Source of the DNA: Rhodohalobacter barkolensis
Lineage (GTDB): Bacteria > Bacteroidota > Rhodothermia > Balneolales > Balneolaceae
Direction: 5' to 3'
Assembly (NCBI RefSeq): GCF_002834295.1
Contig: NZ_PISP01000001.1
Coordinates: 1,550,001-1,614,000 of the forward strand
DNA: 64,000 nt
This document shows positions 32,061-45,263 of the stretch, piece after piece (within the stretch, counting starts at the first letter, position 1; each line of letters starts with the position of its first letter). The notes beneath the pieces were generated by a model. It was not told the origin of the DNA, did not search any database, and saw nothing but the letters and a program-made list of their open reading frames with translations. A program made the translations under genes and the position numbers.

Positions 32061-33500
32061 TTATACGTAGCTGAATGAGGAAAGCAATTCAAACAATCCT
32101 GAAGTTGGAAGCACAGGTTCTACACCATAATAGATAGTGAGAACGGCGAGTAAAATTAACACCAGCTTAAACAGCGTTCCCGGTGATTTTAAACTGTACT
32201 CCCTGTGTGCATCTTTGAAATACATGAATACCATCACCCTCAGGTAGTAATACACACTTGCGGCACTTGCCAACACACCAATTACTGCAAGAGCAATCAA
32301 GTCTGCCTGAACTGCTGCTGCAAATACATAATACTTACCAATAAAGCCTACAAATGGAGGAATACCGGCCAGTGAAAACAGGAAGATGGATAACATGACT
32401 CCCATTACAGGAACTTTAAAACCTAACCCTGCATAACTGTCAATTTCAGTGAAGTCGAGAGCTTTGTTTTTTTCGTAATATGCAATTACACCAAAGGCAC
32501 CAATATTCATTAAGGTATAGGCAAACAGATAATAAAGAACACCGCTGTAACCCGCGGCTGTACCGGCAGCAAGACCTACCATCAAATAACCGGCGTGGGC
32601 AATACTTGAGTATGCAAGCATTCTTTTCACATTATCCTGTGCTAATGCAATCAGGTTACCCACGATCATGGTTAGTATTGCAATCACTTGAATAACGTGA
32701 CTCCACTCTCCCGTTTCAGAACCTGAGAGCATTTGTGTCAGCACTAAAATAAATGCAACGAACGCCGCTGCTTTACCGGCAGTAGCCATGAAACCGGTAA
32801 GAGTGGTAGGAGTTCCCTGGTACACGTCCGGCGTCCACATATGGAAAGGCACTGCTGATATTTTGAAAAAGAGCCCAACAAAAAGTAATGCAACACCCGC
32901 CGTAAACATTACTGTTGCGTCAGCCGCAGCAGCAATTTCAATCAAGTTAGTATGACCTGTTGCTCCATAAATCAGTGCTATACCATAAAGTAAAAATCCG
33001 GTCGAAAATGCACCCAAAAGGAAATATTTCAGGGAAGCTTCGGCGCCTGTTTTTCTTGAATACCAAAGTCCGGCAAGTACATAAAGACTGATAGACATTG
33101 TTTCAAGACTTACAAACAGGCTGATCAGATCATTTGAAACAGCAAGCCCTGCCATACCGGTAGTTGCAAAAAGCATCATTCCATAAACTTCACCCGATTC
33201 AAGATGAATGTCGCGCAGATAGTCTCTGGATAAAATCAGCGATAAAAATGCACCAATAAGAACAACCACAGTACCAAACGCTGCCGGTCCGCCGTAAACA
33301 ATCATTCCTGAAAATGCCGTACCTGCTTCACCAAATAGTGATTGAATAGCAAGTACCAAGGCAACTGCCAAACCAACTATTGATACGTAATAAACTGACC
33401 CGGTTCCTTTTCTAAATACGGTAATTAAAATAGCTGCCAATCCTGTTACGGCTACTACTATACCCGGCAAGAAGGATTGTATATCGTGCAAATAGTTCAT
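32061..33500 (-). CDS. nuoN: NADH-quinone oxidoreductase subunit N
   Basis: 479 residues, about 14 membrane helices. NuoN is one of three antiporter-like proton-pumping subunits in the complex I membrane arm. Signatures include YVLAGLWYSRKTGAEASLKY, the FKISAVPFHMWTPDVYQGTP segment and the NVKRMLAYSSIAHAGY motif with its conserved lysine. Final gene of the nuoL-nuoM-pcd-nuoN operon; only 1 base separates it from the pcd stop. nuoA-nuoK are not in the window. Confidence 0.95.
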   Translation of the reverse strand: MNYLHDIQSFLPGIVVAVTGLAAILITVFRKGTGSVYYVSIVGLAVALVLAIQSLFGEAGTAFSGMIVYGGPAAFGTVVVLIGAFLSLILSRDYLRDIHLESGEVYGMMLFATTGMAGLAVSNDLISLFVSLETMSISLYVLAGLWYSRKTGAEASLKYFLLGAFSTGFLLYGIALIYGATGHTNLIEIAAAADATVMFTAGVALLFVGLFFKISAVPFHMWTPDVYQGTPTTLTGFMATAGKAAAFVAFILVLTQMLSGSETGEWSHVIQVIAILTMIVGNLIALAQDNVKRMLAYSSIAHAGYLMVGLAAGTAAGYSGVLYYLFAYTLMNIGAFGVIAYYEKNKALDFTEIDSYAGLGFKVPVMGVMLSIFLFSLAGIPPFVGFIGKYYVFAAAVQADLIALAVIGVLASAASVYYYLRVMVFMYFKDAHREYSLKSPGTLFKLVLILLAVLTIYYGVEPVLPTSGLFELLSSFSYV

Positions 33501-33501
33501 T

Positions 33502-33792
33502 TCAGTTATTTTTGTAAATCTTATCTATCGCCTTAGCGAGTTGAATATCTTTCTTAGTTACCTTGTTGTCTGCATCGTGAGTATTCAGCTTGATTGATAC
33601 AGAATTATAGACGTTACTCCAATTTGGATGGTGCCCCAGATCTTCAGCCTCAAAGCCTACCTTCACCATAAAAGCGAGGGCCTCTTTAAAATTATCAAAA
33701 CTGAAATCTTTCTTGATCTGATTATCCTCAAAATTCCAATTATCTAACTCTTTTAATTGCGACTCGACTTCTTCTGTTGTGAGAGGCTTCAT
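33502..33792 (-). CDS. phhB: Pterin-4a-carbinolamine dehydratase
   Basis: 96 residues, normal for the family. The active-site motif HHPNW (H54-H55-P56) and the second His-Asp (T71-H72-D73) are intact, with VYNSVSIKLNTHD between. The enzyme dehydrates 4a-hydroxytetrahydrobiopterin after aromatic amino-acid hydroxylation so that the cofactor can be recycled. It is tightly packed between nuoM (4 bases) and nuoN (1 base), hence translationally coupled with complex I genes. I recall the same placement being reported in Rhodothermus marinus. A phenylalanine hydroxylase gene lies 23 kb away. Confidence 0.93.
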   Translation of the reverse strand: MKPLTTEEVESQLKELDNWNFEDNQIKKDFSFDNFKEALAFMVKVGFEAEDLGHHPNWSNVYNSVSIKLNTHDADNKVTKKDIQLAKAIDKIYKNN

Positions 33793-33796
33793 AATA

Positions 33797-35416
33797 TTAG
33801 TCCGTTTTATTTACAAAAAATTGAGATTCCATCTGGTGCTCTTCTACACTATAAATTTTTGCTGTCCAATTTGGCAGCTCGTTCATATCAGCCTGATCCA
33901 GAACGGCAACACTTTTTTCTTCTGATGAGGTGATATAGGTTTCAACCCACCCTTCAGAGTATTGAGTAAAATCAATCGGACGGATTCCAATCCATACCAT
34001 AAAAAGTACCAAGGGAATCAGCAATCCGATTTCCCGCATGTTCAAATCTGTGAGCTTTTCATTCTCTTCATTGGTAATAGGACCAAACAGCACACGCTGG
34101 AACATCCATAGCATGTATACAGCTGCCAAGATCACACCGGTGGCGCCAAGTATTGCAAAGGTTTTATTCGCGTAGAGTTCTGAACTGAATGATCCGTTCA
34201 AAATTAAAAACTCACCAATAAATCCATTTAAACCCGGAAGACCGATCGAAGCCAACGTTGCAATCATAAACATAACAGCAAATACAGGAACTACTTTGGC
34301 AATACCGCCATAGTCGGAAATCATTCTTGTGTGTCGACGATCATAAATCATTCCAACGATAAGGAATAGCGCTCCTGTAGCCAATCCGTGATTAATCATC
34401 TGAATAATCGCGCCCTGCATGGCTATATCGTTCAAGGCAAAAATACCCAGAACTACAAAACCCATGTGACTCACAGATGAGTACGCAACCAATTTCTTCA
34501 CATCCTTTTGAACCATCGCAACCAGCGCACCATAGATAATTCCAATGACAGCTAGTATTGCCATGTAAGGTGCGAACTCCATAAACGCATTAGGAAAAGC
34601 CGGAAGGACAACACGAATCAAACCGTAAGTACCCATTTTCAACATAATCGCCGCCAACACAACTGAACCCGCTGTGGGTGCTTCTGTGTGAGCATAAGGT
34701 AACCAGGTATGAAATGGGAATAGCGGCACTTTAATACAGAAAGCAAGTGCAAAAGCCAGGAATAACCAGGTTTGCTCAACCAGTCCGATGGTATACTCCG
34801 GACTGGATATAAACCTCCAGTCGGCCGTAAAATCTACACCGCCCATCGCTGCCCCTGCATGATAACCGAGGTAGAGAAGTGCAACAAGCATGATCAAAGA
34901 TCCTACCAGCGTATAAATGAAAAACTTAATAGTTGCCCGGATTTTATCACTTCCACCCCAGATACCAATTAAGAAGTACATTGGAATTAAGGAAAGCTCA
35001 AAAAAGACGTAAAATACGACCAGGTCAAGTGCTGCAAACACGCCCAATGATGCAGTCTGAAGCAGAAGCAACATCGAATAGTAACCTTTCAAACTCTTGG
35101 AAACCGAGTTCCATGACGAAAGAATAACGATCGGCCCCATTAACGTGGTCAGCATAAACAGCAACAAACTCAGTCCGTCCAGGCCAACCAGGTATTTAAC
35201 ATCCATACCTGCAAAAATAGCAGCGCCTTCTGTTAAATATTGAGGAGTAGCGGAGGCATCCACATTAAAATTAAACAGTAGCGGAAGTGAAAGAAAAAAT
35301 GTAGCAGTTGTAACAATTAAACTGCTCCACTTCACCGCTGTATCATTTTTCATCAGCAGTATAGCCGCAATACCCAGGAGCGGCAGATAGATCGTAAAAT
35401 TTAGTAGGATCTCCAT
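33797..35416 (-). CDS. nuoM: NADH-quinone oxidoreductase subunit M
   Basis: 539 residues, about 14 membrane helices. Key features are FYVFFELSLIPMYFLIGIWG (with the conserved Glu of helix 5), FCIKVPLFPFHTWLPYAHTEAPT, and QKDVKKLVAYSSVSHMGF. The last 60 residues form a hydrophilic extension (TSSEEKSVAVLDQADMNELP) that is longer than usual. It couples quinone reduction to proton movement as part of complex I. Confidence 0.95.
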   Translation of the reverse strand: MEILLNFTIYLPLLGIAAILLMKNDTAVKWSSLIVTTATFFLSLPLLFNFNVDASATPQYLTEGAAIFAGMDVKYLVGLDGLSLLLFMLTTLMGPIVILSSWNSVSKSLKGYYSMLLLLQTASLGVFAALDLVVFYVFFELSLIPMYFLIGIWGGSDKIRATIKFFIYTLVGSLIMLVALLYLGYHAGAAMGGVDFTADWRFISSPEYTIGLVEQTWLFLAFALAFCIKVPLFPFHTWLPYAHTEAPTAGSVVLAAIMLKMGTYGLIRVVLPAFPNAFMEFAPYMAILAVIGIIYGALVAMVQKDVKKLVAYSSVSHMGFVVLGIFALNDIAMQGAIIQMINHGLATGALFLIVGMIYDRRHTRMISDYGGIAKVVPVFAVMFMIATLASIGLPGLNGFIGEFLILNGSFSSELYANKTFAILGATGVILAAVYMLWMFQRVLFGPITNEENEKLTDLNMREIGLLIPLVLFMVWIGIRPIDFTQYSEGWVETYITSSEEKSVAVLDQADMNELPNWTAKIYSVEEHQMESQFFVNKTD

Positions 35417-35439: not shown

Positions 35440-37458
35440 TTAAAAGAGTATCATTGAAAGAACCAAAATCACACCCAACATCAGGAAGAGTGCATAATTG
35501 GTTGTAATTCCTGTTTGTATATATCGGATCAAGCTCCCCGTAAGCCTCACAACTCCGGCTACTGCATTCACTACACCGTCTACAACCTTCATATCAAATA
35601 CAGCCAATACCTTCTCTGAAAAGCGAACAGTAGGGTGAACAATCACGCCTTCGTAAGCTTCATCCAGATTGTATTTCTGTTTCCAGATTTGATAAAGTGA
35701 ACCGAATCGATTTGCAATTTTTGCGTCCGATTCCTCTTGCTGATCGTTTCCATACATCTTAAATGCGAGGAACACAGAACCAACCGCAACTACGATGGCA
35801 AAGATCATTAATACCCATTCTGCAGCAATTGAAAGTGTTAACGGGATATCTGCAGCAATTGGCAGCATCCAGTCGTGCAGCCAGTTGATATGCCCATCAC
35901 CGCCAAATGTTTTCGATATGAAATTCGGAATACCGATAAATCCACCTACGATTGAAAGTCCTGCAAGCGCCCAGAGCGGAATCGTCATTGTAGAAGGACT
36001 TTCATGCAGATACTCCTCAGCACCTTCAGCTCCCTGAACTTTTTGAGGGAGTTTAAATGAACCGTGAAATGTGGTTAGTGTTAAACGGAACATGTAAAAA
36101 GCAGTAAGGAAAGCCGTAATGGTTGCCACACCCCACAAAATGAAGTACATGGCGCCGGCAAATTCACCAAAACCCATGTTAAAAGCGTGCATTACAATTT
36201 CATCTTTAGAGAAAAACCCTGCCAGTGGAGGGATACCGGCTATGGCAACCGTAGCAATTAAAAATGTTTTATATGTAGAAGGCATAAACTTTCTGAGACC
36301 ACCCATAAACCGAATATCCTGCGGATCAAAATCCACGTGTTTTCCGGCATCGTGCAATTTATGCTTCACATGATCCATTGTATGAATGACTGATCCTGAA
36401 CCCAGGAAGAGACAGGCTTTAAAGAAGGCATGTGTAACGACATGAAAAAGAGCGGCCGTAAATGCACCTGAACCAAGAGCCAGGAACATAAAACCGAGTT
36501 GCGATACGGTTGAGTAAGCCAGAACCCCTTTAATGTCATTTTGTGTGATGGCAATTGTTGCCGCCACAATAGCTGTAAGTGCACCAGTCACTGCAATAAT
36601 CATCATTACCTCCGGACTCATCACATACATTGGTGAAAGTCGTGTAATCAGATAGATCCCTGAAGTTACCATTGTAGCTGCGTGAATAAGTGCAGACACA
36701 GAGGTTGGACCTGCCATCGCATCCGGCAGCCACACGAAGAGTGGAATCTGAGCACTTTTACCGGTTGCCCCGATAAACATCAGGAACGGCACCCAGAATG
36801 TCCAGCTGGCTGAAAATGCATCCAGGTTGGCCAGGATAACGTCAAATTTTAAACTGCCAACAGCTTCAAAAATGGCAAAAATAGCAATCAGAAAAGCAAA
36901 ATCACCAACTCTGTTATATAAGAAAGCTTTCTTAGCGGCATCAGATTTTGCCATATCTGTATACCAGAAACCAATCAGCAGATAAGAACAGAGTCCTACT
37001 CCCTCCCAGCCGAGGAAAAGAAGCAGCAGGTTATCGGCCATAACCAGATTCAGCATAGCAAAGATAAACAGGTTCAGGAAAGCAAAAAACTTCCAGAACC
37101 CAGGATCGTGCGCCATGTATCCTATAGAATAAAAGTGGATCAGAGAACCCACACCGGTTACAACCAACATCATAATCAGTGAGAGCTGATCGATCTGATA
37201 GGCAATATCCACGCTAAAACTTCCGGCTTCTATCCAGGTAAATAACTTAGCCTGGATAGCCCCTGCCTCAGGATTAAAGTTTATGAAAAAGTAGAGAGAG
37301 ATTAGAAACGGAATAAAGACTGCAAAATTAGATAGAGCCCCTATGATGCTCTTCTTATTCCGGTATGAATCTGATGAAAGGCCCAGAATCCCGTTTATTA
37401 AAAAACCGAGAAGCGGTAAACCAACAATAAGACTTACAAGCGCTGTAGGTGATTCCAT
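35440..37458 (-). CDS. nuoL: NADH-quinone oxidoreductase subunit L
   Basis: 672 residues, about 16 membrane helices and the C-terminal lateral-helix extension typical of NuoL. Motifs are LFLGWEGVGLCSYLLIGFWY, SAQIPLFVWLPDAMAGPTSVSALIHAATMVTSG and NDIKGVLAYSTVSQLGFMF. It is the distal pump subunit. First gene of the local operon, starting 318 bases from the divergent Mrp cluster, so nuoL-M-N are transcribed apart from the other complex I genes. Confidence 0.96.
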   Translation of the reverse strand: MESPTALVSLIVGLPLLGFLINGILGLSSDSYRNKKSIIGALSNFAVFIPFLISLYFFINFNPEAGAIQAKLFTWIEAGSFSVDIAYQIDQLSLIMMLVVTGVGSLIHFYSIGYMAHDPGFWKFFAFLNLFIFAMLNLVMADNLLLLFLGWEGVGLCSYLLIGFWYTDMAKSDAAKKAFLYNRVGDFAFLIAIFAIFEAVGSLKFDVILANLDAFSASWTFWVPFLMFIGATGKSAQIPLFVWLPDAMAGPTSVSALIHAATMVTSGIYLITRLSPMYVMSPEVMMIIAVTGALTAIVAATIAITQNDIKGVLAYSTVSQLGFMFLALGSGAFTAALFHVVTHAFFKACLFLGSGSVIHTMDHVKHKLHDAGKHVDFDPQDIRFMGGLRKFMPSTYKTFLIATVAIAGIPPLAGFFSKDEIVMHAFNMGFGEFAGAMYFILWGVATITAFLTAFYMFRLTLTTFHGSFKLPQKVQGAEGAEEYLHESPSTMTIPLWALAGLSIVGGFIGIPNFISKTFGGDGHINWLHDWMLPIAADIPLTLSIAAEWVLMIFAIVVAVGSVFLAFKMYGNDQQEESDAKIANRFGSLYQIWKQKYNLDEAYEGVIVHPTVRFSEKVLAVFDMKVVDGVVNAVAGVVRLTGSLIRYIQTGITTNYALFLMLGVILVLSMILF

Positions 37459-37776: not shown

Positions 37777-38337
37777 ATGAATAAGCTTTCGCTCTACAGT
37801 TTATCGCTCTCTTTTATCTCGCTCATGCTGTTTTGGGTTGTGATGAGTGGTTTTTTTGATGCCGTTCATTTAACCATGGGGGTTCTCTCGGTAGCCGGTG
37901 TAATGGCAATCAACCACAAACTTAAAGTGCACCGTTTTTTCAGTGACGACATGAACGACCTGAAAGAACTCCGATACTTCAGAGCTGTTTACTATTTTTT
38001 CTGGATGATTTACCAGATTGTAGTGGCCGGTTTTCATGTAGTTAAAGTGATTTTCAGCCCCAAGTTACCCACTAAATTGAGTATTGTGCGTTTTAAAGTT
38101 GACCTGCCGAGCTCACATGCCAAAATGATATTGGGTAACTCCATTACTCTCACTCCCGGAACACTAACTGTAGATATTGAGGGAGATTATTTTCTTGTTC
38201 ATGCTCTTGATGATTCATCTTATAAGGGAATAATTTCGGATGAAATGCCCAGGGAAGTTCTTAAGCTTTTTCAAAAAGAGGAGCGTCCTGTAATCAGTGA
38301 TGTTAAAATCACGACCAAAGAATATATACATACCTAA
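37777..38337 (+). CDS. mrpE: Mrp-type Na+/H+ antiporter subunit E
   Basis: 186 residues with two N-terminal membrane helices (about 8-24 and 28-44) and one at 68-88, then a cytosolic domain with GNSITLTPGTLTVDIEGDYFLVHAL, the MrpE signature. MrpE is needed for the assembly and stability of the antiporter. First gene of an eleven-gene cluster; the next gene starts directly after its stop codon. Confidence 0.92.
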   Translation: MNKLSLYSLSLSFISLMLFWVVMSGFFDAVHLTMGVLSVAGVMAINHKLKVHRFFSDDMNDLKELRYFRAVYYFFWMIYQIVVAGFHVVKVIFSPKLPTKLSIVRFKVDLPSSHAKMILGNSITLTPGTLTVDIEGDYFLVHALDDSSYKGIISDEMPREVLKLFQKEERPVISDVKITTKEYIHT

Positions 38338-38613
38338 ATGGATCAATTTTTTCTCTATAGCGCTGTGGTTCTTACCATCATTATCGCTGTTCCGCTTATC
38401 CGGGTAGTGAAAGGACCGACGCTTTTTGACCGATTGCTGGCCACCAATGCCATTGCCACAAAAACGATCGTTTTGATATGCCTGATCGGTTTTTTGTTTG
38501 GACGCATTGACATGTTTATAGATATCACCCTGGCCTATGCTATTCTCGGCTTCATCGGAGTACTGGCAATTGCAAAATACATTACATCTCCAAAAACACG
38601 GCGAAATGCTTGA
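38338..38613 (+). CDS. mrpF: Mrp-type antiporter subunit F
   Basis: 91 residues, three membrane helices. The middle RVVKGPTLFDRLLATNAIATK is the MrpF/MnhF signature (R-x-x-x-GPt-x-x-DR). No gap to mrpE, and its end overlaps mrpG by 8 bases. Small membrane subunit of the multi-subunit cation/proton antiporter. Confidence 0.93.
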   Translation: MDQFFLYSAVVLTIIIAVPLIRVVKGPTLFDRLLATNAIATKTIVLICLIGFLFGRIDMFIDITLAYAILGFIGVLAIAKYITSPKTRRNA

Positions 38614-38935
38614 AATACAATCAATCTTTAGCATTCTGTTTGTAACAACCGGCATTATTTTCATGTTGATGGGGAGCATCGGCATCTTGAGACTGCCGGA
38701 TTTTTACTCCCGAACCCACGCTGTCAGTAAAAGTGATACTCTTGGTGTGTTTTTCGTGATCATTGGTTTGATCATCTACGAAGGATTTACGCTCAGCAGC
38801 GGCAAACTCTTTTTGATCGTTTTGTTTATTGCACTTTCCAACCCTATTGGAACTCATGCCCTGGCCCGTGCCGCCCTCAAGAAAGGGATCAGACCTCTCC
38901 TTCACGACGATAAAAAAGGAGGGCCCTCATCATGA
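38606..38935 (+). CDS. mrpG: Mrp-type antiporter subunit G
   Basis: 109 residues from the ATG at 38606; a longer frame opens upstream inside mrpF, but its extra residues have no family match. Three membrane helices and the signature GILRLPDFYSRTHAVSKSDTLG identify MrpG/MnhG. The hydrophilic C-terminus (ALKKGIRPLLHDDKKGG) is normal. Overlaps the next gene by 4 bases. Confidence 0.93.
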   Translation: MLEIQSIFSILFVTTGIIFMLMGSIGILRLPDFYSRTHAVSKSDTLGVFFVIIGLIIYEGFTLSSGKLFLIVLFIALSNPIGTHALARAALKKGIRPLLHDDKKGGPSS

Positions 38936-39177
38936 TTTGGGAATTAGAACTGGTTATCTACATTTTCCTTCTGCTGTCTGCTATTGTTGCACTGGAATCT
39001 AAAGATCTGCTGGTCGCTGTTGTCATGACCACCGTATTCAGTTTTTTGATGGCGCTACTGTTTGTAACCATGGGGGCCATTGATGTAGGATTCACAGAGG
39101 CTGTAATCGGCGCCGGTGTATCCGGTATTCTATATGTTGTAGTAATCCATCAAACCACAAGACATTCAAAAGATTGA
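38932..39177 (+). CDS. MbhD-like antiporter subunit (split MrpA C-terminus)
   Basis: 81 residues, three membrane helices. The sequence IVALESKDLLVAVVMTTVFS and GFTEAVIGAGVSGILYV matches MbhD / DUF4040, which in classical Mrp systems is the first part of the MrpA C-terminal extension. Here it is a free-standing protein, as in archaeal Mbh/Mbx complexes. Overlaps neighbours by 4 bases on each side, so translation is coupled. Confidence 0.82.
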   Translation: MIWELELVIYIFLLLSAIVALESKDLLVAVVMTTVFSFLMALLFVTMGAIDVGFTEAVIGAGVSGILYVVVIHQTTRHSKD

Positions 39178-39476
39178 AAGCACTAAAAATCATCATACTG
39201 ATTTTATTTGCGTCTGTTATGATTTACGCAGCCAGTGACCTGCCTTACCGCGGAGATCCGGACAACCTGATGCATGCCGAGGAGAGTATTACCGGAACTA
39301 AAGTAGTGGGCAGCTATGTAATTCAGGAAGCCTATAACGATGCAAAAACTCCCAATATCGTAACTGTTATTCTTGGCGACTACAGAAGTGTGGATACGTT
39401 TGGTGAACAGGTTGTAGTCTTTACGGCCGGACTAATTACGATTTTGATTCTTCGAAACCGCAGGAGGCTGACATGA
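39174..39476 (+). CDS. MbhE-like antiporter subunit
   Basis: 100 residues from a TTG that overlaps the previous stop (TTGA). An N-terminal helix (5-22), an extracytoplasmic segment with VVGSYVIQEAYNDAKTPNIV and TVILGDYRSVDTFGEQVVVF, and a second helix near the C-terminus match MbhE, the second part of the MrpA C-terminal extension. DYR-x-x-DT-x-GE is the diagnostic motif. It supports the reading that MrpA is split here. Confidence 0.85.
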   Translation: MKALKIIILILFASVMIYAASDLPYRGDPDNLMHAEESITGTKVVGSYVIQEAYNDAKTPNIVTVILGDYRSVDTFGEQVVVFTAGLITILILRNRRRLT

Positions 39477-39913
39477 GACGACAAGAGGAAAGCCCGATCA
39501 TTCTGCTCGGTTCCAGATTGCTGAGTCCATATATCATGTTATTTGGACTCTATGTGATCTTTTTCGGGCACTACAGTCCCGGCGGCGGATTCCAGGGAGG
39601 AACTCTTCTGGCCGCATCTATACTTTTAATACGGCTTTCAGGCGGAAGGCGCGTATCCCGACTTCAAATTCAGGAATTTGCCACTACTCCACTGGCGGTA
39701 ACTGGAGTTATCATCTATTTCCTTACCGGTTTGGCTGCTATGGCAACAGGTGGATATTTTCTGGATTATGAACAACTCCCATTCCTGACTATGGAACCTG
39801 CTTACATGCGCTATTGGGGTATTCTTATCATCGAGGTGGGAATAGGGCTCGCAGTGATGGCTATCCTTGTGATGATTTATGATAATATGGTAAAAGGAGA
39901 AGATTATGCTTGA
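39473..39913 (+). CDS. mrpB: Mrp-type antiporter subunit B
   Basis: 146 residues, four membrane helices, with AGGAGG before the ATG. GHYSPGGGFQGGTLLAASILL is the MnhB signature. It overlaps mrpC by 8 bases. Required membrane subunit of the cation/proton antiporter. Confidence 0.93.
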   Translation: MRRQEESPIILLGSRLLSPYIMLFGLYVIFFGHYSPGGGFQGGTLLAASILLIRLSGGRRVSRLQIQEFATTPLAVTGVIIYFLTGLAAMATGGYFLDYEQLPFLTMEPAYMRYWGILIIEVGIGLAVMAILVMIYDNMVKGEDYA

Positions 39914-40274
39914 TTTTTTTCTGGGTCACTATGCCTATTGGTTTGTTGTTATTCTGATGTGTGTTGGCCTTTACGGAATACTTTTTAAAAAGAACTTGGT
40001 TAAAAAAACAATCGGGCTGGCCATCTTTCAGGTCTCTGTTGTTCTCTATTTTGTTTCAATTGCATCAAAATGGGATGCCACAGTTCCGGTCAGAGATTCA
40101 AACATACCTGTTGAGCAGGTTGCCAACTATTTGAATCCGCTGCCGCACACTTTAATGCTGACCGCTATTGTGGTAGGAGTTGCTACACTCGGGGTCGCCT
40201 TTACTCTGCTGATGGCCATTTACAACCGATACGGGACCCTTGACGAACAGGAACTGTTAGAAGAAATTCAATGA
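39906..40274 (+). CDS. mrpC: Mrp-type antiporter subunit C (NuoK-like)
   Basis: 122 residues, three membrane helices, homologous to complex I subunit K. GLYGILFKKNLVKKTIGLAIFQ and LPHTLMLTAIVVGVATLGVAFTLLM mark MrpC. Overlaps mrpD by 4 bases (ATGA). In Mrp structures MrpC sits next to MrpD and continues the polar proton path. Confidence 0.93.
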   Translation: MLDFFLGHYAYWFVVILMCVGLYGILFKKNLVKKTIGLAIFQVSVVLYFVSIASKWDATVPVRDSNIPVEQVANYLNPLPHTLMLTAIVVGVATLGVAFTLLMAIYNRYGTLDEQELLEEIQ

Positions 40275-41752
40275 TTGAGTCGCATCTACCGGCACTAATT
40301 GCTCTTACATTTGTACTATTTGCCATTCTGATTCCGGCATTCGGGCTGTGGAAACCCTCCACTTCACAACCACTTGCGGTTGTAGGATCGGGTATCGCTT
40401 CCGTCCTGTCTCTCTACGGTTTTTTATCGTATCTGCAAACCGGGAGTATCCGCTACTTCTTTGGTGGCTGGGAACCACCCGTTGGTATTGAATTTGTCTA
40501 CGATGGGTTATCCGGATTTTTCATCCTGGTTATCAATACCGTTGCATTTTTTGTTTTAATTCATTCGCGACATGTTGCCCGGACGGAGTATCCCGGTAAA
40601 GAGATGCCCTACTTTGCACTGGCCATGCTGGCTCTACTCGGGTTTAATGGAATGATCCTCACCGGCGACCTCTTCAACCTTTATGTATTTCTTGAGATTT
40701 CGTCACTGGCCAGTTACGGTTTAATCGCTATCGGATCACGCCCGGCACCCTTTGCCGCTTTTCGATATCTGATCATCGGAACAGCAGGAGGTACTTTATA
40801 TCTGTTGGGAGTAGGTTTTCTCTACACGGTAACCGGTACATTAAATATTATTGATATGGCGGCCATGCTGCCAAGCTTTGCTACAGATACCTCTGTAGTT
40901 GCTGCTTTGGTATTTATGGTTGTCGGTATAGGCGTAAAAGCGGCACTTTTCCCACTTCACGGATGGCTGCCCGACTCCTATACCTTTGCTTCATCCAGTT
41001 CCACGGCACTCATTGCTCCAATCGGGACAAAAGTAGCCGCATATATTCTGTTTAGAATTGTTTTCTATCTATTTGGTGTAGAGTTAACCGACGCCGTTGC
41101 CCCTATCACTACTGTTATTGGTGTTCTGGCAGCTATTGGAATACTCTACGGTTCTATCATGGCTATTGCACAAACTGAAATGAAGCGCATGCTGGCTTAC
41201 AGCAGTGTTTCCCAAATCGGATATATTATCATGGGGCTAAGTTTGGCCAATCCACTGGGTTTTGCAGGAGCGTTGCTTCACGTTTTAAACCATGCTGTGA
41301 TGAAAGCTTGTCTTTTTCTGGTTGCAGGAAATTTGAGAATGAAAGAAGGCCATTCAGACATCAGCAAATTTGACGACAGCTACAGAAAAAAATATCCCTG
41401 GACGATGGCTTCATTTAGTGTTGCCGCCATCTCCATGGTTGGATTGCCGCCATTGGCCGGCTTCTTCAGCAAATGGTATCTAGCACTTGGAACTATTGAC
41501 AATGAGAACTGGCTCTTTTTAACCGTAATTCTTGTGAGTTCACTGTTAAATGCGGTTTATTTCTTCCGAATTCTTGAGAAAGTTTACATGATGAATCCGA
41601 AGAAAGATCAGAAAGAAGCAACAGATGCTAAAAAAGATGAGGTTTCGGCAAGTATGCTGATTCCTACATCGGTTCTAGCCATTGCACTTTTTGTCATTGG
41701 ATTTGCAAATGCGGCTATTGTCGCCGTTCTGTTTGATATTTTCCCGATGTAG
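40271..41752 (+). CDS. mrpD: Mrp-type antiporter subunit D
   Basis: 493 residues, 14 membrane helices. Conserved elements include LFNLYVFLEISSLASYGLIA (Glu of helix 5), GIGVKAALFPLHGWLPDSYTFA (Lys and His of the ion path), and QTEMKRMLAYSSVSQIGYI. It belongs with NuoN/NuoM-type pumps. First of three such subunits in this cluster, followed by a 106-base gap, the largest inside the operon. Confidence 0.92.
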   Translation: MIESHLPALIALTFVLFAILIPAFGLWKPSTSQPLAVVGSGIASVLSLYGFLSYLQTGSIRYFFGGWEPPVGIEFVYDGLSGFFILVINTVAFFVLIHSRHVARTEYPGKEMPYFALAMLALLGFNGMILTGDLFNLYVFLEISSLASYGLIAIGSRPAPFAAFRYLIIGTAGGTLYLLGVGFLYTVTGTLNIIDMAAMLPSFATDTSVVAALVFMVVGIGVKAALFPLHGWLPDSYTFASSSSTALIAPIGTKVAAYILFRIVFYLFGVELTDAVAPITTVIGVLAAIGILYGSIMAIAQTEMKRMLAYSSVSQIGYIIMGLSLANPLGFAGALLHVLNHAVMKACLFLVAGNLRMKEGHSDISKFDDSYRKKYPWTMASFSVAAISMVGLPPLAGFFSKWYLALGTIDNENWLFLTVILVSSLLNAVYFFRILEKVYMMNPKKDQKEATDAKKDEVSASMLIPTSVLAIALFVIGFANAAIVAVLFDIFPM

Positions 41753-41858
41753 AATTTGAGCAGAATCATATAACTATTGAATTTTAAATCACACATTTTC
41801 ACAAAACTCTAAAACAGATTCACAGAGTTTTTAAAGAAATTAATTACAACAAAGATAG

Positions 41859-43346
41859 ATGGATCTTACGCTTGTACCTTTATTAGCTATTTTAGCATCG
41901 CTTGCAGCGGTTCCGCTCATTCTGTTCAGTTCGTCGAGACCGAACCTGAGAGAGTTTTGGACAATTTTGGCCGCTGTGGTCAAGTTTGGACTGGTACTGA
42001 CACTCCTTCCGTCAGCCCTAAGAGGGGAAAGCGTTGCACTTCATCTGTTTGATCTGGCTCCCGGCCTTCCATTTGCACTGAATGCAGATCCGTTAGGTGT
42101 ATTCTTTGCTGTTATTGCTTCCGGACTATGGATTTTCACCTCGTTTTACTCCATTGGATATGTACGAGGACACAAGGAGCATAAGCAGACCCGATACTAT
42201 GCAAGTTTTGCAATCTGTTTGTCGGCAACGATTGGAATTGCATTTTCCGGTAACCTGCTCACGTTCATTGTTTTCTACGAACTGTTAACACTGGCAACCT
42301 ATCCGCTTGTGATTCATACGGAATCGGATGATGCCATTAAAGCCGGTCGCAAATATCTGGCATTTACATTGACAGCCGGACTCCTTCTGATTGCTGCAGC
42401 CGGAATGGTTTATTACTACACCGGAACATTAGATTTTACCCCGGGCGGAATTCTTGCTGATGCAGATATCCCTTATCACATGATTCTGGTGATGTTCATT
42501 CTCTTTCTGGGTGGCGTGGGTGTTAAAGCCGGTATTATGCCGCTTCACGGCTGGCTTCCTGCAGCAATGGCTGCCCCAACCCCTGTTAGTGCACTTCTTC
42601 ACGCCGTTGCTGTTGTAAAATCCGGTGTATTTGCTGTACTAAGGGTTGTAGGCTACATTTTTGGAGTAGATGTAATGGCCGATTACGGTTTAAATGATAT
42701 TATCATCGTACTTGCCGGTGCAACCATCATACTGGCATCCTTGATAGCTTTTGCACAAGATAATTTGAAACGACGTCTTGCATATTCTACGGTTGGTCAC
42801 CTTTCCTACATTGTACTCGGTATCGCGCTGCTGACTCCTTTGGGAATTCAAGGTGGTATCATGCACATTGCCGCTCATGCAACGATGAAAATTACTCTCT
42901 TTTTCTGCGCCGGAGCCATCATTGTCAATCTGCACCGAACAGAAATCAGCAATTTAAATGGAATTGCAAAAGTGATGCCCTGGACGATGGGTGCTTTTGT
43001 AGTTGGATCGATGGGGCTTGCTGGCATCCCTCCCATCAACGGTTTTTTAAGTAAGTTCTACCTGATCTCCGGATCTCTTGAGGGAGATATGATGATTCCG
43101 GTCATCATCCTGATTGTGAGTGGACTATTAAATGCCGGGTACTTTTTTCCAATTATTCACCGGGCTTATTTCAAGAAAGGTGAAGGACTGGAAAAATATG
43201 GAGAGGCATCACCGTTTATGGTTGTTCCTATTGTAATTACTGCCACACTTTCTGTTCTCTTTGGATTGTTCCCAAATCTCTTTTTCAACTTTTTTGATCT
43301 CGCAGCACAAATCAGCGAATCACTCTTTAATTCACCATCACCATGA
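41859..43346 (+). CDS. Second antiporter-like (MrpD/NuoM-type) subunit
   Basis: 495 residues, 14 membrane helices. LLTFIVFYELLTLATYPLVIH, GGVGVKAGIMPLHGWLPAAMAAPTP and QDNLKRRLAYSTVGHLSY carry the conserved Glu, Lys and His of proton-conducting subunits. It is not a near-duplicate of the preceding MrpD. It may occupy the place of the N-terminal part of MrpA, or be an additional pump module. Its stop overlaps the next small gene by 4 bases. Confidence 0.85.
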   Translation: MDLTLVPLLAILASLAAVPLILFSSSRPNLREFWTILAAVVKFGLVLTLLPSALRGESVALHLFDLAPGLPFALNADPLGVFFAVIASGLWIFTSFYSIGYVRGHKEHKQTRYYASFAICLSATIGIAFSGNLLTFIVFYELLTLATYPLVIHTESDDAIKAGRKYLAFTLTAGLLLIAAAGMVYYYTGTLDFTPGGILADADIPYHMILVMFILFLGGVGVKAGIMPLHGWLPAAMAAPTPVSALLHAVAVVKSGVFAVLRVVGYIFGVDVMADYGLNDIIIVLAGATIILASLIAFAQDNLKRRLAYSTVGHLSYIVLGIALLTPLGIQGGIMHIAAHATMKITLFFCAGAIIVNLHRTEISNLNGIAKVMPWTMGAFVVGSMGLAGIPPINGFLSKFYLISGSLEGDMMIPVIILIVSGLLNAGYFFPIIHRAYFKKGEGLEKYGEASPFMVVPIVITATLSVLFGLFPNLFFNFFDLAAQISESLFNSPSP

Positions 43347-43555
43347 AAAACTGGCATTGGATCATATTAGGTATTCTATTTCTGGTAACTCTGGTTTTTG
43401 AGTTCACCTTTCTGGCCGATTACGACAGCCATTGGTGGAACTCAATTCCTGCTTTTTACGCCATTTTTGGCTTTGTAAGCTGTATCGTCATCATCTATTT
43501 TGCCAAATTTATTGCCAAAAACATTGTAAACCGCGACATCAACTATTATGATTGA
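43343..43555 (+). CDS. Small two-helix membrane protein of the Mrp cluster
   Basis: 70 residues with helices at about 4-24 and 37-57. The loop DYDSHWWNSIPAFYAIFGF is aromatic-rich and the C-terminus is FIAKNIVNRDINYYD. No family I can name. Overlapping both neighbours (4 and 8 bases) means it is translated with the antiporter subunits, so it is probably a structural subunit placed between two pump modules. Function is inferred from position. Confidence 0.75.
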   Translation: MKNWHWIILGILFLVTLVFEFTFLADYDSHWWNSIPAFYAIFGFVSCIVIIYFAKFIAKNIVNRDINYYD

Positions 43556-45263
43556 GCTTTTAACCATACCGGGTGTCATTTTAATTATCGGAGCAGTACT
43601 GCTTGCACTACTGCCTGAAAAATTTCGGAGTTCAGCATTTTTACTTTTCCCAATTGCTGCACTCGCTTTTGTGATTACCCGGCCGGACGGATATTCCGTA
43701 ACTGCTTCTCTGGGTAATTTCGAGCTCATTGTGATGGAAGTAGATGCACTGAGTCGGGTTTTCGGAATCATTTTTGCAATTACAGCTTTTGTAGCCGGCA
43801 CTTACGCATGGCACATTAAAGATTTAGGACAACAGGTTAATGCGCTGGTCTATGCCGGAAGTGCACTGGGCGTTACGTTTGCCGGGGATCTGCTCACACT
43901 CATCATTTTCTGGGAGCTGATGGCCGTCAGTTCAACGTGGCTCATCTGGGCAAATCGGAATGAGGCTTCAGATAAAGCCGGTATGCGCTATCTGATCTAT
44001 CACGTATTGGGAGGAGGACTGTTGCTTGGTGGTATTCTCTGGCACTATATGGATACCGGATCTCTTTTAGTTGAATCACTCGCTCAAGAGTATACAATCG
44101 GTAATGTGATGATGTTGATTGGTGTATCCATCAACGCGGCTGTAATTCCGCTTCACACCTGGCTGGCGGATGCCTACCCGAAGGCAACTGTTACAGGTGC
44201 GGTGTTTATGAGTGCTTTTACGACCAAATCTGCAGTTTATGTACTCATACGGGTCTTTCCGGGTTGGGAGCTACTCATCTGGTTTGGTGCGGCTATGGCT
44301 ATTTATGGTGTTGTGTACGCGGTAATCTGTAAAGATATCAGGGAAATTCTCGCATATCACATTATCAGCCAGGTGGGATTTATGGTATGCGGTATCGGTA
44401 TCGGTACAGACCTTGCTCTGAATGGAGCTACTGCCCACGCATACAGCCACATTCTTTACAAATCCCTCCTTTTTATGAGTACCGGGGCCGTACTTTATGC
44501 AACAGGCACATCCAAACTTGTACACCTTGGCGGTCTTGCTAAAAAAATGCCTTACGTATTGGGACTCTACCTTGTCGGGGGATTTTCGATCTCCGGATTG
44601 CCTCTGTTTAACGGATACATCAGTAAATCGATGACCATCAGCGCCGCCGGATATGCTCATAATGAAGCAGCTATGCTGATGCTTCTGTTCGCTTCCGTGG
44701 GTACATTCCTCAGTGTTGGGTTGAAACTCCCCTATTACACTTGGTTTGGAAAAGAGGACAACGACATTGAGGTAAAGCCACTTCCGAAAAATATGTATAT
44801 CGGAATGGGGATGGCTGCTTTTGCCTGTATTTTTTACGGCCTCTATCCGCAGGCACTTTACATGTATCTGCCATTTGATGCAGACTACAATCCGTTTACC
44901 ATCTATCACTTTGTAGAAGTCACTCAGATCAGTTTAATGACTTTTGCAGGATTCTGGTTACTCCGTAAGAAACTTGCAGGAGAGTTGATTATCGCGCTCG
45001 ATGTGGACTGGTTCTATAGAAAAGCAACACCGGCAGCACGCAGAGTATTTGTTCACGGAGTTGATAATTTCTACGATCGGGTTGAAGAGAAGATCTGGGA
45101 TATTGCCGGGTTTTTGACCAAAAAATTTAAAAATCCGATGTTATGGCTCAATCCATTTACAGATCGTAAAAATGTAGCTTCACGCTACAGCCCGTCGATG
45201 GAAGTCATTATGAGCTTCATTCTATTTACAATATTGGTGTTTTCGCTCGTCTACCTTACATGA
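43548..45263 (+). CDS. Third antiporter-like (NuoL/MrpA-type) subunit
   Basis: 571 residues. The first 440 hold about 14 membrane helices with LLTLIIFWELMAVSSTWLIW, SINAAVIPLHTWLADAYPKATVTG and KDIREILAYHIISQVGFMV. The final 100 residues carry an amphipathic extension (VHGVDNFYDRVEEKIWDIAGFL) and a last membrane helix, similar to the NuoL lateral helix or the MrpA linker. Together with the free MbhD- and MbhE-like proteins it could stand for a split MrpA. Last gene of the cluster. Confidence 0.85.
   Translation: MIELLTIPGVILIIGAVLLALLPEKFRSSAFLLFPIAALAFVITRPDGYSVTASLGNFELIVMEVDALSRVFGIIFAITAFVAGTYAWHIKDLGQQVNALVYAGSALGVTFAGDLLTLIIFWELMAVSSTWLIWANRNEASDKAGMRYLIYHVLGGGLLLGGILWHYMDTGSLLVESLAQEYTIGNVMMLIGVSINAAVIPLHTWLADAYPKATVTGAVFMSAFTTKSAVYVLIRVFPGWELLIWFGAAMAIYGVVYAVICKDIREILAYHIISQVGFMVCGIGIGTDLALNGATAHAYSHILYKSLLFMSTGAVLYATGTSKLVHLGGLAKKMPYVLGLYLVGGFSISGLPLFNGYISKSMTISAAGYAHNEAAMLMLLFASVGTFLSVGLKLPYYTWFGKEDNDIEVKPLPKNMYIGMGMAAFACIFYGLYPQALYMYLPFDADYNPFTIYHFVEVTQISLMTFAGFWLLRKKLAGELIIALDVDWFYRKATPAARRVFVHGVDNFYDRVEEKIWDIAGFLTKKFKNPMLWLNPFTDRKNVASRYSPSMEVIMSFILFTILVFSLVYLT

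Follow-up and report, generated by a model that had tools for sequence, protein, structure and literature searches.

A three-pump Mrp-type antiporter cluster in Rhodohalobacter barkolensis and a pump cassette shared with complex I

The window analysed here, 64,000 nucleotides of the Rhodohalobacter barkolensis genome (contig NZ_PISP01000001.1, positions 1,550,001 to 1,614,000), carries an eleven-gene cluster at 37777-45263 that probably specifies a single antiporter of the Mrp type, exchanging H+ for a monovalent cation (Na+ or K+) and having an extended pump arm. The cluster is a variant of the Mrp antiporter with three pumps (p1, p2 and p3) and a split MrpA, and a similar layout is already in print. 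Within the literature searched, what appears to be undescribed is a 70-aa small subunit encoded between p2 and p3, the p3 family itself, which lacks the lysine of transmembrane helix 7 (TM7), and the position of the rhizobial complex I cassette within the tree of Mrp copies. More tentatively, and at somewhat below even confidence, we propose that p2, the small protein and p3 form a self-contained transferable cassette which originated in Mrp and on one occasion took over the place of NuoL in complex I, that p3 is a lysine-less subunit without canonical Lys/Glu chemistry, and that both complexes have the 70-aa protein as an overlooked core subunit.

Gene content and distribution of the cluster

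All eleven genes lie on the forward strand, and open reading frames (ORFs) with Pfam and NCBIfam matches gave the order mrpE-F-G-mbhD-mbhE-B-C-p1-p2-(70 aa)-p3. The cluster begins with mrpE (37777-38337; MNHE family, PF01899, E = 6.6e-29), with a TPGTL proline segment visible in its translation, followed by mrpF (38338-38613; PF04066, E = 2.6e-14), which retains the Asp of the GPT-x-x-D-R segment, and mrpG (38609-38935; PF03334, E = 4.4e-28), whose start codon is our own choice, the longest ORF beginning at 38537. Two short genes then encode free counterparts of the MrpA tail: an MbhD-like protein for its NuoJ-like part (38932-39177; PF13244, E = 7.9e-18) and an MbhE-like protein for its end (39174-39476; PF20501, E = 2e-9). 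These precede mrpB, a separate 146-aa MnhB ORF (39473-39913; PF04039, E = 7.9e-25), and the NuoK-like mrpC (39906-40274; Oxidored_q2, PF00420, E = 1.1e-20), for which the top NCBIfam models are antiporter subunit C. The three pumps are all Proton_antipo_M proteins: p1 is a 493-aa MrpD/NuoN-like antiporter subunit (40271-41752; PF00361, E = 1.2e-59; top NCBIfam model PRK12662, subunit D), p2 has 495 aa (41859-43346; PF00361, E = 4.4e-60) and matches PRK07234/PRK08375 best, below their cut-offs, and the terminal p3 has 571 aa (43548-45263) and scores 698 bits against PRK12668, for which the cut-off is 564. Directly before p3 lies the gene for the 70-aa two-helix membrane protein (43343-43555), which overlaps both neighbours by a few bases.

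This layout agrees with the first-pass annotation of the window, which had described the same gene order, free MbhD and MbhE in place of the MrpA tail and three antiporter-like subunits rather than two. Homologues of MrpB, C, D, E, F and G are encoded together, as in Mrp (CPA3) antiporters generally. Because eight of the ten gene joints overlap by a few bases and mrpE abuts mrpF, translation of the cluster is probably coupled; p1 and p2 are separated by 106 bases. Scans for promoters and terminators were uninformative (20 and 9 sites, with 18.5 and 8.5 expected). Nine Proton_antipo_M proteins were found genome-wide. A search for another full mrpA, which the same annotation had suggested, was carried out with MbhD across the 97%-complete assembly; its sole match lies in the window, so the rest of the assembly yielded no full-length mrpA.

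A species-level scan (one genome per species) gave the best 80 of at least 582 relatives, and the counts given here refer to these 80 loci and hence to close relatives rather than to all. Locus labels came from hidden Markov models (HMMs) built on the window, L010, L015 and subsets of L049-L080; L081-L160 lay outside the training set, although some of them are the same strains as training genomes (L052 and L085 are identical in the p2+p3 tree). Phylum names were taken from record titles, many of them of metagenome-assembled genomes, and some are old or doubtful (e.g. 'Deltaproteobacteria'). Among the 80 loci, 42 are Mrp-type, 26 are complex I-type (L099 is both) and 13 are neither, most of the latter being cut or rearranged. 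The Mrp-type loci span at least 14 phyla, and 30 of them keep the canonical order in full, 4 show a variant of it and the other 8 are cut. Within the phylum of R. barkolensis, p3 exceeded the PRK12668 cut-off in 19 of 296 genomes, that of the window included; 16 of the 18 other loci (L052-L069) carry the same eleven genes in the same order, and contig ends truncate the remaining two (L056, L058). Among named relatives, those nearest in p2+p3 are Balneolaceae contigs, with up to 81% identity, and on four haloarchaeal plasmids the same order occurs, there with a fused MbhD and MbhE. Since the same eleven-gene order recurs in other genomes and the non-synonymous rate (dN) of the 70-aa ORF is far below its synonymous rate (dS), the order of the cluster is not due to chance. 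The three-pump Mrp cluster is real and widespread in bacteria and archaea, not a one-off. The suggestion in the first-pass annotation of a distinct ion-pumping complex thus stands as far as a distinct three-pump type with a split MrpA tail is concerned, as judged from the clades and topology tests below, but the type is not unusual, given the spread of its order (30 of 42 loci, and haloarchaea).

Some loci depart from this pattern. An extra small-p3 pair follows the first in L113, L115, L150 and L159 (Desulfobacterota-type contigs; L113 is cut at the contig end), and the second pair suggests a four-pump antiporter; no Mrp genes were found within the stretches of L115, which is cut, and L159. 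The latter reads p2-small-p3-small-p3 and has neither Mrp nor nuo genes in its stretch. A third kind of host complex for the cassette was considered for the 13 loci of neither type and rejected, although L159 does not fit this conclusion readily. In L088 (Spirochaetia bacterium), two HyfB/HyfF-like pump genes and a weak NuoD-like match lie downstream of the Mrp cluster, perhaps a hydrogenase-type complex beside the antiporter.

The three pumps and the small protein

The pumps were placed in a quick tree of 103 rows (quick search; one L111 row was relabelled from classical MrpD to p1 by context) and in a careful tree of 48 chosen rows, in which classical MrpD is thinly sampled with three rows. 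In both trees p2, p3, NuoL, NuoM, NuoN and the MrpA N-terminal pump (MrpA-N) each form one clade with 97-100% support, and in the 48-row tree p1, p2 and p3 are three separate clades in 96, 100 and 100% of 200 bootstrap trees, with the p2 clade supported at 100/100. MrpA-N and NuoL form a clade that contains neither p2 nor p3 (98 in the 103-row tree, 100/100 in the 48-row tree). In the 48-row tree p2 branches next to this NuoL+MrpA-N clade (89/77) and p1 groups with NuoN (94/88); a grouping of p1 with classical MrpD was not rejected by the approximately unbiased (AU) test (p = 0.09). Two L088 rows called p1 by the HMMs fell with HyfB and HyfF in the 103-row tree, and p1 hence needs three changes there. 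Placing p2 in the MrpA-N clade was rejected (AU test, p = 0.0014), and placing p3 there was rejected marginally (p = 0.032). The comparison of the pumps with MrpA, MrpD and NuoL/M/N proposed in the first-pass annotation therefore put no pump inside the MrpA-N clade, a grouping that would have counted against its reading. p2 and p3 are clades of their own, distinct from MrpA, classical MrpD and NuoL/M/N.

The channel residues, numbered after E. coli NuoL, were tallied in 113 p3, 98 p2 and 66 p1 sequences, near-copies included, after removal of ORFs shorter than 400 aa, domains of less than 1000 bases and p1 rows below 420 bits. At the TM7 Lys229 position p3 has Asn in 111 of 113 sequences, the other two carrying one Asp and one Ser, while TM5 Glu, TM12 Lys and an Arg at the Lys305 position are present in all 113; no His was found at the 254 position in tallies of 23 p3 rows. 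All 98 p2 sequences have TM5 Glu, TM7 Lys, His254, TM8 Lys, Lys305, TM11 Lys and TM12 Lys. For p1, TM5 Glu, TM7 Lys and TM12 Lys are present in 66 of 66, with the other positions variable. The TM7 Lys was also found in every NuoL (3), NuoM (10), NuoN (9), MrpA (7) and classical MrpD (3) row compared, and the Mbh/MBS-like row L071 has Glu at this position. A structural paper calls the TM7 lysine absolutely conserved and essential (PMC7419157), and His254 has been described as a switch particular to NuoL/MrpA (PMC13358369). From the residue pattern and this switch, p2 has the MrpA/NuoL-type ion path and p3 does not.

What p3 is predicted to share with MrpA and NuoL is the lateral helix. An AlphaFold model built from a 60-row alignment (mean predicted local distance difference test score (pLDDT) 90, predicted template modelling score 0.86) shows a long helix at 488-526 and a last transmembrane helix at 551-570 after the core, with a confidence of 57-81 for the tail. 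The top Foldseek match of the model is MrpA (7qru_A, E = 7e-22), and VIA-align against NuoL chains gave a Z of about 45, with the alignment running into part of the lateral helix. Neither p1 nor p2 is long enough to accommodate such a helix. The tail of p3 after a conserved Phe has a median length of 119 (range 115-123, 30 rows) in complex I copies and 105 in Mrp copies (61 rows; one truncated, the others 94-169), and the longer tail in complex I copies may reflect the extra pumps to be spanned.

The small protein is encoded directly upstream of p3 in 84 of 87 p3 rows from the 80 loci. In the three rows without it, L101 is cut by a contig end, the L094 row is the second piece of one ORF, and the third is the second p3 of L128. 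Comparison with L060, the closest relative compared, gave dN/dS values of 0.021/1.149 for the 70-aa ORF, and across five near relatives dN was 0.02-0.11 and dS 0.8-2.3. The protein is under purifying selection, and a chance overlapping ORF is ruled out by these rates and by its presence before p3. Many members end in a C-terminal motif resembling [R/K]-x-E-D-Y-Y-D, and AlphaFold gives a two-helix hairpin (pLDDT 82). Pfam and NCBIfam profile searches returned scattered weak matches, each family in at most 3 of 43 members, with no convincing family, and a PDB profile search gave no convincing match (best E = 0.4). We considered whether the small protein is hidden in the long C-terminus of the haloarchaeal p2, which was ruled out: the extension is an acidic insert, with no match to the small protein in the four plasmid loci. 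L133, a contig titled Halobacteria archaeon, does have the small protein. Neither the small protein, nor the Asn of p3, nor a derivation of the green complex I cassette from Mrp was found described in our literature search, although key subscription papers were outside its reach and absence is not proven.

A cassette shared with complex I

The same p2-small-p3 unit occurs in complex I operons at 26 of the 80 loci. Where both flanks are visible, the order is nuoJ-K-p2-small-p3-M, and no NuoL match above 13 bits was found in the complex I-type stretches seen, some of which are cut; the cassette thus occupies the NuoL slot. In the rhizobial 'green' complex I, NuoL has given way to two MrpD-like subunits (Degli Esposti & Martinez-Romero 2016, as cited in PMC9040806); this complex I has homologous p2, small and p3 genes in the same order, attached to nuoA-N rather than to Mrp as in the window, with identities to the window of 47-50% for p2, 49-50% for p3 and 26-31% for the small protein. 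Besides rhizobia, the record titles of cassette-bearing complex I loci include Thermodesulfobacteriota, Myxococcota, Planctomycetota, Nitrospirota and a Nitrosomonadales contig.

For a concatenated p2+p3 tree, p2 had to reach 470 aa and p3 540 aa, which removed shorter or cut loci and left 74 rows (47 Mrp, 27 complex I); the support values of this tree come from a quick search and its root was not inferred by the method. The tree needs a single change of context between Mrp and complex I. The complex I rows together with one long-branch Mrp row (L148) are supported at 99; next come three Methanosarcinales/ANME-type Mrp rows (99) and then four Desulfobacterota-type Mrp rows (99), and the haloarchaeal Mrp rows are distant. 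With the root anywhere but in the complex I branch, this topology suggests that the cassette moved from Mrp to complex I, most likely once.

In Halobaculum marinum, one of the four haloarchaeal plasmid loci, p2 and p3 form a single 1096-aa ORF (L074, 8986-12276). As Rosetta-stone evidence this single case carries little weight, because its relative Halomicrococcus (L164) has p2 and p3 as two genes.

Proposed mechanism, neighbouring genes and known systems

Cation/H+ antiport is suggested by the family to which these proteins belong, and we infer that the eleven products assemble into one complex. MrpE, F, G, B, MbhD and MbhE would form the cation-handling end, and MrpC would couple it to p1, which would sit in the NuoN/MrpD position; the arm would continue with p2 and then p3, whose lateral helix may run back along the arm and clamp it, as in MrpA and NuoL. 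The work of MrpA would then be divided, with p2 providing the histidine-switch ion path, p3 the lateral helix, and MbhD and MbhE the tail. The 70-aa protein would be a companion of p3, probably packed at the p2/p3 interface. Because the TM7 lysine of the canonical Lys/Glu pair is missing, p3 probably moves ions differently or mainly serves as an end clamp. The cassette, in turn, would most likely have entered complex I once, replacing NuoL.

Several observations weigh against parts of this proposal. At the cation end, MbhE retains the D-T-F-G-E (D-x-x-x-E) carboxylate pair of the MrpA tail, but the Glu of MbhD lies four residues before that of MrpA, which is reported as essential (PMC7419157), so the cation site is not identical; we interpret the pattern as cation/H+ antiport whose coupling site differs slightly. 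The placement of p3 is unstable: it joins HyfB in the 48-row tree (94/90) and MrpA-N, NuoL and MBS-like pumps, among them the second pumps of two Mbh/MBS-like loci, in the 103-row tree (84), and a p3+MrpA-N+NuoL grouping was not rejected (AU test, p = 0.26). MrpD and NuoM chains also align with the p3 model at Z 42-45, in the core only, within about 2 Z of NuoL, so that by fold only the extra helix separates MrpA/NuoL from MrpD/NuoM. The complex I rows of the p2+p3 tree taken alone reach a Shimodaira-Hasegawa-like approximate likelihood ratio (SH-aLRT) support of 74, and L159 indicates that the cassette may also stand alone. Finally, the small protein was not found in any of the four haloarchaeal plasmid loci and is thus not needed everywhere.

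The genes next to the cluster belong to complex I. On the opposite strand lie nuoL (35440-37458; PF00361/PF00662/PF01010, grouping with NuoL), nuoM (33797-35416, NuoM clade) and nuoN (32061-33500, NuoN clade), so that, as the first-pass annotation had noted, the cluster faces nuoL-M-N, with six pump-type proteins within 13.2 kb. A pterin-4a-carbinolamine dehydratase gene (33502-33792, reverse strand; PF01329, E = 1.3e-30) sits between nuoM and nuoN and stays near nuoM in the relatives L055, L060, L061, L066 and L069; the complex I locus of Rhodothermus marinus, which is reported to include genes for an NhaD antiporter (nhaD) and a pterin dehydratase, would match this dehydratase. The genome has one compact complex I set of 11 subunits (L010; nuoA-D and H-N, without E-F-G) and a second set scattered over at least three places: nuoA-H (L015), nuoJ-K (L163) and, most likely, the nuoL-M-N of the window. 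A NuoI for this second set was not located in the genome.

These neighbours invite the reading that complex I gains an additional or alternative arm from p1-p3, or from p2 and p3 alone, and that the cluster is a complex I accessory. In the window, and in 12 of the 18 loci fetched from the same phylum, nuo genes adjoin the cluster; nuoL-M is divergent in the window and in 10 of the 18. The cluster is flanked by nuoJ-K on one side and nuoL-M on the other in L063, L065-L067 and L069, sits in L054 and L093 between nuoM and nuoN, all on one strand, and has nuoN downstream in L056, which starts mid-cluster; the 26 complex I loci with p2-small-p3 point the same way, as does L099 (Syntrophaceae CG2_30_58_14), where a complex I operon with its own p2-small-p3 comes immediately after a three-pump Mrp cluster. 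We nevertheless regard this reading as unlikely. MrpC, MbhD/E, B, E, F, G and p1 are all encoded by the cluster itself, the genome has L, M and N sets for both complex I loci, and in the window only nuoL-M-N adjoin the cluster, on the opposite strand, rather than the nuoA-K redox and membrane core. No nuo gene was found within the fetched flanks of L052, L053, L059, L062 and L064, and nuo genes above 40 bits were absent from those of 37 of the 42 Mrp loci, many of which are short. We take the nuo neighbourhood to reflect co-expression or linkage; it does not prove that the two systems form one complex. For the first-pass idea that the antiporter works with complex I, the gene neighbourhood supports a link, and the cassette is part of complex I elsewhere; the cluster itself contains no redox subunit.

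Two other readings are less probable still. The top NCBIfam models call all three pumps 'subunit D', as they would in an ordinary two-pump Mrp with a duplicated mrpD and p2 and p3 as redundant copies, but the three separate clades each extend across many phyla, residue patterns follow family rather than lineage, and the lateral helix of p3 has no room in p1 or p2, all of which make duplication highly improbable. The free MbhD and MbhE are shared with Mbh, and the same-phylum loci L070 and L071 carry NuoB/C/D/H-like genes after an Mbh-type cluster, so that an Mbh/MBS-like membrane hydrogenase or sulfane reductase with a lost or misplaced redox module, its antiporter driven by electron transfer, might be considered. 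This is equally improbable, since none of the eleven ORFs is a NuoB/C/D/H/I-like redox subunit, the flanks are nuoL-M-N and ppc, and p2 and p3 differ from the L070/L071 pumps in the 103-row tree.

A single Mrp-type antiporter with an extended arm can be set beside several known systems. Group 1 and 2 Mrp antiporters (Bacillus, Vibrio) share E, F, G, C and a D-type pump with the window, with B separate or fused, but their MrpA is one chain (N-terminal pump and tail) and they have two pumps only (Niallia L079, Vibrio L077). The free MbhD and MbhE and the lack of an MrpA-N clade member set the cluster apart from group 1, with its seven genes and single-chain MrpA, and the separate MnhB ORF sets it apart from group 2, with its MrpA-MrpB fusion. 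Group 3 is described by Ito 2017 as having every subunit present, an irregular gene order and extra B/D copies (PMC5703873); the cluster fits this loose wording, yet has no MrpA-N clade pump. Mbh/MBS complexes, compared through L070 and L071 only, share free MbhD and MbhE and MrpC- and MrpD-like parts, and differ in their additional pump and redox module. The haloarchaeal mnh E-F-G-DUF4040-B-C-D-D-D (Natronorubrum daqingense plasmid, L072) has the same order and three pumps, with p2 49% and p3 34% identical to the window. It differs in its fused MbhD and MbhE (one DUF4040 protein), in the acidic insert of p2, in a p3 without the D-x-D-W-F-Y-R motif, and in that no small protein was detected. 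By description only, the layout of the cluster resembles that of the group 3 Mrp in 'Ca. Nitrospira alkalitolerans', where mrpD is followed by two NuoM/NuoL-like genes, and the accessible part of that report mentions neither a small protein nor a shared cassette (PMC7784846). Likewise by description, Complex_I_3 of Manganitrophaceae has two MrpD-like subunits for NuoL, a pair likened to the rhizobial one and, in the accessible part of the source, neither traced to an Mrp cluster nor accompanied by a named small gene (PMC9040806).

These findings bear on two questions: which of the antiporter-like subunits in complex I do the pumping, and whether all of them depend on the TM5 Glu/TM7 Lys pair. 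The p3 family is a natural experiment in this respect: at the arm end of antiporters and in the NuoL slot, the TM7 Lys is replaced by Asn and TM5 Glu and TM12 Lys are kept. Should p3 prove necessary for activity, the idea that no such subunit can do without the TM7 lysine would have to be revised; should it turn out not to pump, the stoichiometry would have to be recounted both for these Mrp complexes and for green complex I. The shared cassette would be a directional example of complex I acquiring antiporter parts, and it points to a small subunit that is annotated as hypothetical.

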